The position numbers and the translations under genes were made by a program. A stretch of DNA of 64,000 nt from Acidobacteriota bacterium (GTDB lineage Bacteria > Acidobacteriota > Holophagae > Holophagales > Holophagaceae): assembly GCA_016195985.1 (NCBI GenBank), contig JACPYP010000006.1, forward strand, positions 1 through 64,000. Direction: 5' to 3'. The notes below the pieces were generated by a model that saw only the letters and a list, made by a program, of their open reading frames with translations, did no database searches and was not told the origin of the DNA. This document shows positions 17,644 through 53,819 of the stretch, piece by piece; position 1 is the stretch's first letter; each line of letters starts with the position of its first letter.

Positions 17644-17865
17644 GCCATTCCTCCATCAAAGGACAAACCGGGACGGTTCGAGTTGAACCGGGCCATCGAT
17701 TTTTGGGGGGGGGGATTCTGAGTATTCAGAACCCCGTTCCGCAATAAGTCCAGCCCTAAGTTTTCGGGGAATTCCCTAGGAGGCCTCGATTCGGCTGGCG
17801 GATCGAACCGCAGGGGTAGGAGCCTCCAAGCGGGGGTAACCTGGAAGTCCCACAAGGAGAGCCCC

Positions 17866-18363
<498 letters not shown>

Positions 18364-18384
18364 CCAGCCGCACGCGGATCACCG

Positions 18385-18410
18385 GCAGGCGGCTCTTCGG
18401 GGCCGCCTGC
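18385..18410 (+). terminator. Hairpin downstream of tpx
   Basis: A 9-bp stem (GCAGGCGGC/GCCGCCTGC) with an 8-base loop starts 21 bp after the tpx stop. There is no T-run, so it is terminator-like only. Confidence 0.5.
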
Positions 18411-18426
18411 TGCATATGGGCCTGCA

Positions 18427-18564
18427 GCTAGTGTGCCTCGCCTGAAATAACTGGATCATTCAGGGCAGCTGGCGAGGCACACTTCCATCGGGGCATGGCC
18501 CCTCTGGCGCATGGGCGCGGGACCGCGCCCATGCTGTCACCCCGCTGGGGGCGCTGCCACGCCC
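18427..18564. repeat. 138-bp multi-hairpin dispersed repeat, copy 1
   Basis: 137 of 138 bases match the copy at 51859-51996. Internal structure: an outer inverted repeat AGTGTGCCTCGCC...GGCGAGGCACACT (about 18431-18482), a short GGGGC/GCCCC hairpin, and a perfect 10-bp stem ATGGGCGCGG/CCGCGCCCAT. The right end overlaps the last codons and the stop of the minus-strand roadblock gene. It could be a REP/MITE-type element or a structured RNA end. Confidence 0.85.
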
Positions 18565-18953
18565 GCGGCTGGCTCCGGGGCGGCCGGCTCCGGAAGGAGC
18601 GCCTGGTGGGCCACCAGCTTCTCGATTTTGGGAATCGCCACGCCCAGCGAAATATTGAGGAACTGAAGATTGGCCTGCGGGCTGCAAGCCAGGAGCAGGG
18701 CCGCGCCTTTGATGGGGCGGACGATGATGCGGGCGCCGCGGTACCGGAAATCGAGCATGGAAACCGGCCCGGTGGCCACCTCCAGCCCCAGGGTTCCGTT
18801 CAAGAGGATGCCGGCGGCCTCGGCGAGATGGCCTGGGTCGAATGCCGGGGGAAAGGCCTGGGTGAGGATGCGGCCTTCCGGGTTGTAGATGAGGCACCCC
18901 ACGATGCCAGGCAGGGTGTTCATCTGATTCAGCAGCGTCTGCATGGAATCCAT
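18537..18953 (-). CDS. Roadblock/LC7-like protein
   Basis: 138 aa from the ATG at 18953; the open frame extends further upstream but is not coding there. The core (MQTLLNQMNTLPGIVGCLIY, then RILTQAFP, MLDFRYRGARIIVRPI and GAALLLACSP) fits a roadblock/LC7 fold like MglB-type GTPase regulators. The tail is Pro/Ala-rich. The final residues, AAPPAG, and the stop lie inside the 138-bp repeat, so the native C-terminus may have been replaced. It starts 5 nt after the stop of the DUF4388/roadblock gene, so the two are translationally coupled. Roadblock proteins usually bind small GTPases; an MglA-like GTPase lies 20 kb away. Confidence 0.7.
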   Translation of the reverse strand: MDSMQTLLNQMNTLPGIVGCLIYNPEGRILTQAFPPAFDPGHLAEAAGILLNGTLGLEVATGPVSMLDFRYRGARIIVRPIKGAALLLACSPQANLQFLNISLGVAIPKIEKLVAHQALLPEPAAPEPAAGVAAPPAG

Positions 18954-18958
18954 CCCAC

Positions 18959-19693
18959 TCAGCGGTTCAGGGCGAAGGCTTGCCTGATCTGGGCCTCCAC
19001 GGCGCCTGCCGGGTGTTCCCCGCTGGCCAGGACGCAGAGGAGGTGCTGCTTCAACCCGAGAAGCAACAGGTGGCGCGAGGCCCCCTCCACCACGGCGCAC
19101 ACCATGTCCCCCGCCTGGAAGACCGGGGACAGCTGGGCGGCGACCATGGCAAGGAAGGAACCCTGGCCGGCGAGGACCTCGCCCTCGAAGCTCGCATCCC
19201 CCATCCGCTGCCCATCCAGGGTCTGGAGCACCGCGTAGAGCACCCCCGGCACCGCCTTGACCTTCTCGATGATCTCGCTGGCCTTCAGCGCCTTCTCCGG
19301 AACCGGGACAGCCTCCTGGGGGCGCTCCCGGCGGCTGTCCCGGCGGAATTCCAGAATGCAGTTGGCATCCTGGATGAGGCGCCTGCAGGGCTTTTGAAGG
19401 GTGGTGTCGGTGGAGGTGAGACCGGGATGCAGCCTGATGTAGCCCTGCGGCCACTCCAGGAGGTCGCACAGGGCTTCTTCGCCGGATCGGTCTCCGAGTT
19501 CGGCGTGAACGACTGCACCAGCCCGGAAAAAGACCAGGCCGGTGGATTCGCCGTCATGGAATGACAGGCATCCCGTGAACTGGTGGTCGGAATGGGACTG
19601 GATCTGGGCCGCCAATTCGTGGCCCCGAATCGCCCCGCCGAAACCCTCTCCCGCCCGGTCAGGCTGCTCAGGCTGCTCACTCAAAGGCGCCAT
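18959..19693 (-). CDS. DUF4388 (PATAN) - roadblock domain protein
   Basis: 244 aa. The ATG at 19693 is chosen because GGAGG lies 6 nt upstream; an in-frame start 87 nt earlier lacks one. Residues about 20-110 look like a DUF4388/PATAN domain (FTGCLSFHDGESTGLVFFRAGAVVHAE, continuing to the PQGYIRLHPG segment). Residues 145-244 look like a roadblock domain (SEIIEKVKAVPGVLYAVL, VFQAGDMVCAVVEG, HLLLLGLKQ). Such proteins occur in bacterial signalling and gliding systems with MglA-type GTPases. It is followed at once by a second roadblock gene, suggesting a heteromeric pair. The partner is inferred, not shown. Confidence 0.7.
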   Translation of the reverse strand: MAPLSEQPEQPDRAGEGFGGAIRGHELAAQIQSHSDHQFTGCLSFHDGESTGLVFFRAGAVVHAELGDRSGEEALCDLLEWPQGYIRLHPGLTSTDTTLQKPCRRLIQDANCILEFRRDSRRERPQEAVPVPEKALKASEIIEKVKAVPGVLYAVLQTLDGQRMGDASFEGEVLAGQGSFLAMVAAQLSPVFQAGDMVCAVVEGASRHLLLLGLKQHLLCVLASGEHPAGAVEAQIRQAFALNR

Positions 19694-21053: not shown

Positions 21054-21297
21054 ACTCGTATCTCAACGCGTCGATGACGTCGCAACCGCCGGATCGCAGA
21101 GCAGGCTCCGGGGGAGCCTGCGGCGCGAGGCATCCGGCGAGGCGCGAATCAGGGGCGAAGGGCGAAACCACCATCACTCGTATCTCAGCGCGTCGATGAC
21201 ATCGCAACCGCCGGATCGCAGAGCAGGCTCCGGGGGAGCCTGCGGCGCGAGGCATCCGGCGAGGCGCGAATCAGGGGCGAAGGGCGAAGCCACCATC
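21054..21297. repeat. Tandem 122-bp repeat (two units)
   Basis: Units 21054-21175 and 21176-21297 differ at 3 of 122 positions. A third start of the unit (ACTCGTATCT, 21298-21307) marks the junction with the permease gene. Each unit holds a 9-bp hairpin (GCAGGCTCC/GGAGCCTGC). On the minus strand each encodes an end DVIDALRYE plus stop, the usual C-terminus of MacB/FtsX-type permeases. 122 is not a multiple of 3, so the second unit cannot continue the frame. Confidence 0.9.
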
Positions 21298-50654: not shown

Positions 50655-51303
50655 CACGGTCTTCCTCACCTTGCTCAAGAGGGCATGCCTGGCCCTGCTG
50701 CTTGCCCCGCCCCTGCTCGCGGATGGCGTGGAAGCGGCGCTCGGCGTGGCGGTGGGGCCCACTCGGCCCAACGCGATCCTCCGCTCGGGCGACAACACCA
50801 CGGCGCTGCAGCTGCGGGCGGGCTGGGACCAGTCGCCCTCCCAGCTGCGCATGGACCAATGGCAAGTCATGGCCCAGTCGGGATCCAGCGAAACCGTGCG
50901 GTTCGTCATGGCGGGCCTGGGCTGCCAGCGCAGCTGGTGGACCGAACGGCATGGCGCCCAGGCCGCCCTGGGCGCAGAACTGAGGGTGGAGCGGTTCCAG
51001 GGCCACAGCAGCCTGGCTGGAGGAGTCTCGCCCCTGGCCTCTGCGCAGGCCTGGATGGTCCGCCCCTGGCTCCGCGCCCAAGTGGGTTTCCGGGGCCTGC
51101 TGACCCCCCTGCCCAGCCCGGCCATGCAAACGCTGCACTGGCTCACCCAGGGAGGCCGCTACACCCATCCCTTCACCCGCCTGGAGGTCGCCGTGCCCCT
51201 TTGGCAGCAGGGAGGAGAAGGGTCAGGGGGCGCGCTCCGGCAAATGGCGCCCCGCTGGGAGGGCTCGCTTCAACTCGGCATGCGTTTTGGAGGGCTTTTC
51301 TGA
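50647..51303 (+). CDS. Predicted outer-membrane beta-barrel protein, 218 aa
   Basis: ATG 50647 overlaps the permease stop by 8 bp. The signal peptide is TVFLTLLKRACLALLLAPPLLA. The mature part alternates in strand-like fashion (ALGVAVGPTRPNAILRS, TALQLRAGWDQSPSQ, AALGAELRVERFQ, TRLEVAVPLWQQ) and ends in LQLGMRFGGLF, with a terminal Phe typical of BAM-assembled barrels. I do not recognise a family. Its coupling to an ABC permease and to pgpA (51303, TGATG) suggests a role in envelope lipid or lipoprotein handling. Confidence 0.7.
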   Translation: MFSTVFLTLLKRACLALLLAPPLLADGVEAALGVAVGPTRPNAILRSGDNTTALQLRAGWDQSPSQLRMDQWQVMAQSGSSETVRFVMAGLGCQRSWWTERHGAQAALGAELRVERFQGHSSLAGGVSPLASAQAWMVRPWLRAQVGFRGLLTPLPSPAMQTLHWLTQGGRYTHPFTRLEVAVPLWQQGGEGSGGALRQMAPRWEGSLQLGMRFGGLF

Positions 51304-51863
51304 TGAGCGGATCCACCTCTCCAGCCCCCCGCCTCGCTTGGTGGATCGCCACCGGGTTCGGCAGCGGCTACCTGAAACCCGCGCCGGGCACCTGGGGCAG
51401 CTTGGCCGGCCTGCTCGTTTGGCTGGGGCTGGCCTTGGCCCTGACGCGCACGCCGTGGGTGTTCGCGCCCTGGATCCTTCTGGCCGCGCCGCTGCTCCTG
51501 GCGCTGGTGGCGGTATGGGCCTCCCACCGGGTCGTCCAGGAAACGGGACAGAAGGATCCTTCCTTCATCGTGGCGGATGAGTGGGCCGGCGTTTGGTTCG
51601 CGCTCACGCCCCTGCTGTTCACGGTCACCGTGCAGCCGCAGCCCGCGATGCTCTGGGCAGCGCGGCTGGTGGCGCCCTTCATGCTGTTCCGGCTCTTCGA
51701 CATCTGGAAGCCGGGCGTGGTGGACCGGGCCCAGGCCCTGCCCGGCGGTTGGGGCGTGGTCCTGGATGACGTGCTGGCGGGCATTCTCGCCGCCCTCATC
51801 GTCTGGCCCCTGGACCGCTGGCTGGGCGCGCAGTCGCTGCTGCGCCCGGAGCTGTGGCGCTAG
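51303..51863 (+). CDS. pgpA: Phosphatidylglycerophosphatase A
   Basis: 186 aa. It dephosphorylates phosphatidylglycerol phosphate in the inner membrane. WWIATGFGSGYLKPAPGTWGSL, DPSFIVADEWAGVW and FRLFDIWKPGVVDRAQALPGGWGVVLDDVLAG are the three conserved PgpA blocks, with the acidic catalytic residues in ADEW and LDDVLAG. About four spans. The start overlaps the previous stop (TGATG). The TAG stop (51861-51863) belongs to copy 2 of the 138-bp repeat. Confidence 0.93.
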   Translation: MSGSTSPAPRLAWWIATGFGSGYLKPAPGTWGSLAGLLVWLGLALALTRTPWVFAPWILLAAPLLLALVAVWASHRVVQETGQKDPSFIVADEWAGVWFALTPLLFTVTVQPQPAMLWAARLVAPFMLFRLFDIWKPGVVDRAQALPGGWGVVLDDVLAGILAALIVWPLDRWLGAQSLLRPELWR

Positions 51864-51996
51864 TGTGCCTCGCCTGAAATAACTGGATCATTCAGGGGAG
51901 CTGGCGAGGCACACTTCCATCGGGGCATGGCCCCTCTGGCGCATGGGCGCGGGACCGCGCCCATGCTGTCACCCCGCTGGGGGCGCTGCCACGCCC
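51859..51996. repeat. 138-bp multi-hairpin dispersed repeat, copy 2
   Basis: Same structure as copy 1 at 18427-18564, with a single base difference (C/G near the centre of the first hairpin). It begins at the pgpA stop codon, supplying its TAG. Nearly perfect conservation over 138 bp in non-coding DNA argues for recent duplication or for selection. Confidence 0.85.
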
Positions 51997-52011
51997 CCAG
52001 ACCCCTGCCCC

Positions 52012-52062
52012 GTGGTGTCCATGGGCGTAGAGATCGCACCAGGTATTTCGAGCGGACACCAC
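52012..52062. terminator. Stem-loop at the 3' end of the helicase gene
   Basis: GTGGTGTCC (52012-52020) pairs with GGACACCAC (52054-52062) across a 33-base loop, 12 bp from the helicase stop. It lies in the convergent gap between pgpA and the helicase. Confidence 0.4.
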
Positions 52063-52073
52063 TAGCCCGGAAT

Positions 52074-53819
52074 TCAGCCTGCGGTGTCTTCCAGCAACTG
52101 CTTCCACACGGTGGGCTCGTTGAGGCGGCCCTGCTCGTCGAAGCGGCGGCTTTCAATCATGTAGCGGTAGCCCTGCTCGGTGAGGAAGAGCTGGCGGTTG
52201 CGGGCGAACTCCTGCTCGGTGGTTTCGCTGCTGATGAGCGAGTAGAAGTAGCTCACGTTGCGCTCGCCCTTGGGGCGCAGGATGCGGCCCAGGCGCTGGG
52301 CCTCTTCCTGCCTCGACCCGAAGGTTCCGCTCACCTGGATGGCCACGGAGGCATCTGGCAGGTCGATGGCGAAGTTGGCCACCTTGCTCACGATGAGAAC
52401 GCGCAGCTGGCCCTCCCGGAACTGCCGGAAGAGCGATTCGCGCTCCTTCTCCGGCGTCTGGCCCGTGAGCACCGGCGCATTCAGGCGTTCGCCGATGATG
52501 CGGAGCTGCTCCAGATACTGGCCGATGACGAGGATGTTGTCGTTGGGATGGCCTGCCAGGAGCTCATCCATGACCACCATCTTCATGCTGTTCTCGGAGG
52601 CGATGCGGAAGCGCAGGCGCTGGTCCGCCACCGCGTATTCCATGCGTTCGTCCGTGGGCAGGGGCACGCGGATCTCCAGGCAGTGGGCCGTGGCGATGAA
52701 GCCGTCCTTCTCGAGCATCTTCCAGGGCACGTCCACGCGCTTGGGGCCGATGAGGCTGAAGACGTCCTCCTCCTTGCCGTCCTCGCGCACCAGGGTGGCC
52801 GTGAGCCCCAGGCGCCGCTTGGCCTGCAGTTCCGCCACGGCCCGGAACACCGGCGCGGGCAGCATGTGCACCTCGTCATAGATCACCAGGCCCCAGTTGG
52901 CCGCTTCAAACAGCGTGAAGTGCTCGAAGGGCCCGGTCTTGCTCCGGCGGTAGGTGAGGATCTGGTAGGTGGCGATGGTGACTGGCTTGATCTCCTTGGT
53001 GTCGCCCGTGTAGAGGCCGATCTGGTCCTCGGTCAGCGTGGTCTTGTCGAGCAGTTCCTGCTTCCACTGCTTCACGGCGGTGCCGTTGGTGGTGAGCACC
53101 AGGGTGTGGGTCTGCAGGCTGCCCATGCAGCCGATGCCGATGACAGTCTTGCCCGCGCCACAGGGCAGAACCAGCACGCCCGCGCCGCCGTCCGGGCCGC
53201 CGCCCGCGTGGAAGACATCCACCGCCGCCTGCTGGTAGGGGCGCAGGCCGAAGGGCTTGCCGTTCTGCTTCGTGGTGGTGGACAGCTCGAAGGGCAGCGG
53301 ATCACCGGGTTTGTAGCCGGCCATGTCCTGCACGGGATGCCCCAGGCGGATGAGCTGCAGCTTTACTTCGCCGCGCATGCCGGTGTTGAGGAAGATGCCC
53401 TTCTCGTCCGGGTAGGGTTCCGCCAGCAGGCCCTGCAGCGACTTCTGGTTCTCCAGCTCCCAGAAGAGGCCGCGGTCATCCATTTCAAGGGCCAGGCGGT
53501 CGCCCTTGGCCACGAGCTTCAGCTTGCCGTAGCGGGTGCCGTGATCCTCGATCTCCTGCAACAGGTTCTGAGGCACCGGATACTTCGACCAGGCATTCAG
53601 GGTTTCGATCATGTCCGTGCAGCTCACGCCAGAAGCCGAGGCGTTCCACAGACTGAGGGGAGTGATGCGGTAGGTGTGGATGTGCTCGGGGCTCTTCACC
53701 AGCTCCGCGAAGCGGGCCAGCTCGTCCCGCACCTGCTCGAAGGCGGGATGGGCCACCTCGAGGAGCAGCGTGCGATCGCTCTGGACGATCAGGGGGTTGT
53801 CGGGGCGGAGGGCGATCAC
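52074..53819 (-). CDS. XPB/ERCC3-type DNA helicase
   Basis: 581 aa, starting at GTG 53819. An N-terminal domain (1-185, IVQSDRTLLLEVAHPAF) precedes the SF2 motor. Motif Q-like FGLRPYQQAAVD; Walker A PCGAGKTVIG (219-228); DEVH box (315-318) in IYDEVHMLP; motif III LTATLVR; motif VI QEEAQRLGRILRPKG. An RED-like element, VREDGK, follows motif III as in XPB. Bacterial XPB unwinds DNA 3' to 5' and its cellular job is uncertain. A helicase-associated-domain protein that accompanies XPB in many bacteria is encoded at 56975 on the other strand, beyond the metzincin gene. Confidence 0.92.
   Translation of the reverse strand: MIALRPDNPLIVQSDRTLLLEVAHPAFEQVRDELARFAELVKSPEHIHTYRITPLSLWNASASGVSCTDMIETLNAWSKYPVPQNLLQEIEDHGTRYGKLKLVAKGDRLALEMDDRGLFWELENQKSLQGLLAEPYPDEKGIFLNTGMRGEVKLQLIRLGHPVQDMAGYKPGDPLPFELSTTTKQNGKPFGLRPYQQAAVDVFHAGGGPDGGAGVLVLPCGAGKTVIGIGCMGSLQTHTLVLTTNGTAVKQWKQELLDKTTLTEDQIGLYTGDTKEIKPVTIATYQILTYRRSKTGPFEHFTLFEAANWGLVIYDEVHMLPAPVFRAVAELQAKRRLGLTATLVREDGKEEDVFSLIGPKRVDVPWKMLEKDGFIATAHCLEIRVPLPTDERMEYAVADQRLRFRIASENSMKMVVMDELLAGHPNDNILVIGQYLEQLRIIGERLNAPVLTGQTPEKERESLFRQFREGQLRVLIVSKVANFAIDLPDASVAIQVSGTFGSRQEEAQRLGRILRPKGERNVSYFYSLISSETTEQEFARNRQLFLTEQGYRYMIESRRFDEQGRLNEPTVWKQLLEDTAG

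Follow-up and report, generated by a model that had tools for sequence, protein, structure and literature searches.

The multi-hairpin block that follows tpx in the window, the whole 64,000-nucleotide stretch analyzed here, is very probably a truncated copy of a non-autonomous MITE of the IS630/Tc1-mariner type, the complete unit of which is 206 bp. An IS630-type MITE is the most likely explanation because the block belongs to a family of copies, because its termini resemble those of IS630 elements and abut CTAG, and because a site without the element holds a single CTAG. The unit is also short and lacks a transposase gene, and its dispersed copies have defined ends and IS630-like terminal inverted repeats.

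The initial annotation had described two near-identical 138-bp blocks, and positions 18427–18564 and 51859–51996 are indeed identical at 137 of 138 bases, with one base differing. The boundaries of that unit had to be moved, since the full element is 206 bp long; copy 2 (Table 1) and seven further genomic copies measure 205–206 bp. The G at 18427 lies outside the element proper and is a chance match, and the element starts with the CTAG at 18428. The terminal inverted repeats are imperfect and span approximately 30 bp, and the element reads CTAGTG-N10-GAAATA-N-CTGGATC inward from either end. Judged by stop positions, its internal open frames reach about 68 codons at most. Among the 54 copies spanning both ends (46 of the 60 fetched from relatives and eight from the own genome), CTAG is present at the start in 45 and at the end in 42, and the bases outside it vary. 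The terminal pattern, with up to three mismatches allowed, was matched by 25 ends in the own genome, all of which belong to element copies by position. Two other repeats were observed in the window, a 122-bp tandem duplication (21054–21297, 98% identical) that overlaps a long, transporter-looking reading frame at its start, and a 300-bp direct repeat (251–550 and 770–1069, 80% identical).

Table 1. Coordinates of the two element copies in the window, their structural parts, and the neighboring genes
Feature	Position	Strand	Remark
tpx, thiol peroxidase	17866–18363	+	
Hairpin after tpx, ahead of the element	about 18383–18412	+	
Copy 1	18428–18564	+	Element positions 1–137 of 206; right end lost (terminal hairpin 4, right CTAG)
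Left CTAG flank (target site)	18428–18431	.	Copy 1
Terminal hairpin 1	18430–18483	+	Copy 1; holds the left terminal inverted repeat
Mini hairpin GGGGC-ATG-GCCCC	18490–18502	+	Copy 1; nearly invariant, without compensatory change
Hairpin 2	18509–18534	+	Copy 1; strongest covariation, both-sided change in 8 of 9 pairs
Hairpin 3	18545–18564	+	Copy 1; 3' arm cut by the truncation
Roadblock-like gene	18537–18953	-	Element supplies the eight C-terminal residues (GVAAPPAG) and the TGA stop; native tail absent
pgpA	51303–51863	+	Left of copy 2; its TAG stop lies within the target CTAG
Copy 2	51860–52065	+	Complete 206-bp element, CTAG...CTAG
Right terminal inverted repeat CTAGTGGTGTCCGCTCGAAATACCTGGTGC	52036–52065	-	Copy 2
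XPB-type DNA repair helicase gene	52074–53819	-	Other side of copy 2

Besides the two copies of the window, a genome-wide search revealed a dispersed family whose members end sharply at CTAG and lie between unrelated flanks. Grouping of the full-unit searches put the number of copies in the own genome at 20 or more, a lower bound because 40 of the 48–50 candidates were scored. They comprise eight full-length copies, four internally deleted copies, three that have lost the right end, including copy 1, three that have lost the left end, and two diverged copies (86% and 71%). The full-length copies are 97–100% identical, one being short of a base and another starting with CTAA. Deletions affect 10 of the 18 near-identical copies, and the four with internal deletions retain both ends. 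Beyond this genome, the 138-bp query had matches in 34 of 150 genomes (own included), spread over 7 of 62 genera, and a model of the core detected 16 genomes among 396 of the phylum, 15 of them in the same family (own included), with five and ten candidates, respectively, scored per genome in the relatives. The sole core-model match outside the family, in G094, had an E-value of 3.1e-5 among the 396 genomes. The exact core pattern occurred in 44 stretches of an 84,980-species collection, which may omit records near the window's genome, and all were titled Geothrix, Holophagaceae, or Acidobacteria. A distant blastn search detected no plasmid or phage homologues, and Rfam gave no match in the window at the gathering score and none at E-values up to 1 for positions 51800–52120. 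The host range of the 206-base element is Geothrix-like bacteria, with relatives in several Holophagaceae genera.

The description of the block as a structured element was borne out. The fold of the 138-bp block is much more stable than those of dinucleotide shuffles (z of -4.9 for the plus and -5.6 for the minus strand), and none of 200 shuffles folded as well. For covariation, the 54 copies were reduced to 35 non-redundant ones by dropping three with large indels (L132, L098, and L103) and those more than 95.5% identical to a kept copy. The resulting alignment holds 44 pairs in six helices, with 96.3% of the cells able to pair. Both-sided changes were found at 21 pairs and in 122 cells, compared with 28.1 cells in shuffles, none of 500 of which reached the observed value, and 13–22 with slid partners. 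Hairpins 1, 2, 3, and 4 contribute 6, 8, 3, and 4 such pairs, respectively. Compensatory changes thus occur in four of the five hairpins and extend across genera, where copies share the same layout with quite different stems; the wider set comprises 34 rows, 23 of the 35 hand-chosen for spread and 11 of 20 core-model loci with recognizable ends. For a mobile repeat, this is an unusually clear signal of covariation. G-U cells do not exceed A-C cells (18 vs. 29 within the genus and 24 vs. 45 in the wider set) and so provide no evidence for a plus-strand RNA, and the surplus of A-C would weakly fit an RNA of the minus strand. The conserved structure could act as DNA, as minus-strand RNA, or as both. 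A closing stem TGGC/GCCA, which was predicted within the genus and makes up three of the 44 pairs, has no both-sided change; it is not claimed here, as its pair 82–168 fails in 5 of the 34 wider-set rows.

The target of the element was examined at the pgpA/XPB loci of relatives. Both flanks of copy 2 are contained in 22 of 29 such loci, and 21 of these 22 lack the element; at 8 of the 21 empty loci (L261, L262, L266, L268, L272, L274, L283, and L288), pgpA itself ends in CTAG. The empty site of copy 2 thus holds a single CTAG. The remaining locus, L281 of G005, carries a diverged family member inside the identical CTAG at the pgpA stop, which is most simply explained as an independent insertion. 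The CTAG on both sides is compatible with duplication of either TA or CTAG in most copies, and a few copies flanked by TTAG...CTAG, CTAG...CTAC, or CTAG...CTAA are compatible with TA duplication and also with point mutation. At L090 and L086, adjacent pairs of elements have one CTAG in common, as if one had entered the flank of the other.

CTAG is rare in this DNA: the window contains 21, whereas its base composition predicts 205 and its trinucleotide counts predict 73. Under a codon-position GC filter, 31 of 48 insertions lie at a gene's stop, compared with 49 of 150 other CTAG sites from 119 other loci (Fisher p = 1.6e-4, only a guide because the filter was chosen after an unfiltered test had failed); six of the 54 copies had flanks too short to be included. 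The count stays at 31 of 48 when a real stop triplet is required, and dropping one member of a flank-sharing pair gives 31 of 47. The same filter yielded 2 of 15 CTAG sites and 1103 of 5000 random positions in the window. The unfiltered test of open-frame length found no enrichment (36 of 54 insertions vs. 9 of 15 window and 10 of 16 flank CTAG sites), spurious frames being long in GC-rich DNA. At three full-length copies of the own genome (L062, L064, and L066), long open frames of both strands end in a common CTAG, and the filter accepts both for L066 only. Placement at gene ends fits the choice of CTAG as a target, a rare tetramer about a third of whose sites contain a TAG stop.

At copy 1, the neighboring gene has lost its own end. 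The initial annotation had assigned six residues and the stop of the minus-strand gene to the element, and the actual number is eight. The replacement of the native C-terminus was confirmed, since a tail segment like FEKVFLKMDSWMRK is present in all six relatives compared (G020, G034, G038, G012, G036, and G016) and absent from the window protein. The roadblock label of this gene is less secure; Robl_LC7 matched the window protein with an E-value of 0.26 and two orthologues with 0.19 and 0.00047, all under the curated cut-off, and the gene is called roadblock-like here. The element gave no hit in the 34 tpx or roadblock loci examined in relatives. The three left-truncated copies of the own genome break at element positions 63–66, each in frame with a gene, which encodes a CheW-domain protein (L071), an enoyl-CoA hydratase-like protein (L073), or a SnoaL-like protein (L074). 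The domain of the enoyl-CoA hydratase-like gene is cut short, covering profile positions 46–177 of 251. These three fusions may be events similar to that of the roadblock-like gene.

The position right after tpx had also led to the proposal that the block serves as a transcript end. In such a terminator module, the hairpins would be kept for ending or protecting the transcripts of the neighbors. In its favor, the hairpins are very stable and many copies lie directly after stop codons, but this proposal is unlikely and finds no support at the locus itself. The tpx gene has its own hairpin upstream of the element, and a similar inverted repeat is readable after tpx in G020, where the element is absent. 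No T-tract intrinsic terminator was found in 17700–19000 (shuffle mean 1.0). Moreover, there is no orientation bias, as genes run into the left end in 19 and into the right end in 17 of the 48 insertions, the pairs have no wobble excess on the plus strand, and the position after genes is in keeping with the CTAG target.

The reading as an IS630-type MITE is supported by insertion sequences of relatives. IS630-family insertion sequences with related termini at CTAG were found in the Holophagaceae genomes G034, G066, G014, G016, and G051. The transposase at L146 was assigned to the IS630 family by NCBIfam (252.8 bits vs. a cut-off of 100), and the termini of the element recur at both ends of this locus, with two and three mismatches in 19 bases. 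L148 and L149 have the termini at the single end that each locus contains, and the one end present at L361 deviates at one of the 20 specified bases. Four copies fetched from G066, each 1870–1871 bp long, run from CTAGTGTAGG to CCTACACTAG, with three and six terminal mismatches, and a site within the same genome is empty, its CTAG being uninterrupted in L380 and filled in L357; as for copy 2, the empty site contains a single CTAG. Passages of PMC2170065 report IS630-type insertion at TA, with duplication demonstrated, for ISY100, and its reference list includes a title on an IS630 composite transposon preferring TA in 5'-CTAG-3'. These insertion sequences differ from the element in encoding a transposase, and that of G034 adds a PD-(D/E)XK gene. 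The core (mini hairpin and hairpins 2 and 3) had no blastn match in any of the 45 loci of the IS630 search, and therefore simple deletion from the insertion sequences examined does not account for the element. Of 47 genomes of the genus, six have PF13358 (DDE_3) matches, and a search with the L146 transposase protein matched 17 of 150 genomes. Neither search found an IS630 transposase in the own genome, a copy of which may be missing from the assembly because this consists of 33 contigs.

Some further features of these insertion sequences were observed. In the 1871-bp element of G034, the PDDEXK_3 gene occupies L146:713–1129, and a long inverted repeat was seen by eye at about 1185–1340. The copies of G066 are about as long as the G034 element. 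G066 also contains a different palindromic repeat of 227 bp, common to L357:2650–2876 and L380:2699–2925, and the IS630 element entered its internal CTAG in L357.

Two other modes of mobility were considered. The terminal hairpins are mutually inverted and both abut CTAG, as in a REP/BIME-type pair of palindromes spread by a RAYT (Y1) transposase, but the inverted repeats match IS630 ends as far as the loop motif GAAATA-N-CTGGA, the unit is 206 bp rather than the 20–40 bp given for REP palindromes in the relevant passage of PMC3733652, and the empty sites have a single CTAG, which makes this origin very improbable. An IS481 or other rve-type transposase acting on TG...CA ends with CTAG duplication is disfavored and highly improbable. 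The element does read TG...CA inside CTAG, and matches of the IS481 type are widespread among genomes of the genus (32 of 47), but among 30 such loci fetched (L199–L228), both termini, with at most five mismatches in 19, were present only in L224, which is the IS630 locus L146, and two others had one five-mismatch match each. A simple segmental duplication involving part of a gene, suggested by there being just two copies inside the window, has next to no probability and is refuted by the defined CTAG ends and empty sites, besides the at least 20 genome copies with unrelated flanks.

For the IS630-type MITE, the following course of events can be proposed. Most likely, an IS630-family transposase of the kind found in some relatives acted in trans and inserted the element, by a cut-and-paste mechanism, at the TA within CTAG. 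The insertion would re-create CTAG on either side, and the neighboring gene would keep its stop. Later deletions at the edges may sometimes cut into the neighboring gene, which would then end in element sequence, as does the roadblock-like gene at copy 1. From the comparisons above, we infer the action in trans, the 2-bp duplication of TA, and the order of insertion and then deletion. Such a family offers a simple reason for the build-up of elements at gene ends, as the rare CTAG often holds a TAG stop that insertion restores, and it supplies recent examples, within a single genome, of gene 3' ends replaced by element sequence. Several observations stand against the MITE reading: the copies are near-identical, yet no IS630 transposase was detected in the own genome; the core has no match in the IS630 loci examined; its conservation across genera exceeds the needs of a purely selfish remnant; duplications of TA and CTAG look alike in most copies; and the cruder gene-end test found no enrichment over other CTAG sites. 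As to the conservation of the core, it is possible, though only a tentative reading, that the core together with its near-invariant linkers is under structural selection in several Holophagaceae genera, and perhaps in another family, independently of the IS630 ends. If so, the core would be a folded cargo that functions in transcripts or, in the form of single-stranded DNA, helps transposition, and the element would amount to more than a leftover without a transposase.

Searches of the literature on Geothrix and Acidobacteria repeats, IS481 or IS630 MITEs, and CTAG targets gave listings and abstract openings that contained no description of this family. It most likely belongs to the IS630-type MITEs, and RUP, ERIC, Correia/NEMIS, and QMITE are nearest to it in kind, all compared by description. 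According to passages of PMC2229807, the 107-bp RUP of Streptococcus pneumoniae, for which IS630-Spn1 is the proposed mover, is likewise non-autonomous, with IS630-like terminal inverted repeats and a TA target; the likeness is one of kind, and the present element has 206 bp, a covarying multi-hairpin structure, an acidobacterial host, and CTAG as its site. The enterobacterial ERIC, or RU-1 (127 bp), is described in parts of PMC2229807 and PMC2759123 as a similarly small, structured mobile repeat with TA termini, copies of which form in-frame fusions to the 3' ends of genes, as those of the element do, but the size, the ends, and the host phylum are different. The Correia/NEMIS repeats of Neisseria are also elements with terminal inverted repeats and TA termini, and the same passages of PMC2229807 mention stem-loop transcripts and, for those repeats, proposed processing by RNase III. 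QMITE1 and QMITE2 of Coxiella burnetii likewise overlap genes at their 3' ends, where they may contribute residues to the products, as stated in sections of PMC5896051, in which the reason for the 3'-end preference is called unknown; for the element described here, the overlap of CTAG with TAG stops, together with selection, offers such a reason.
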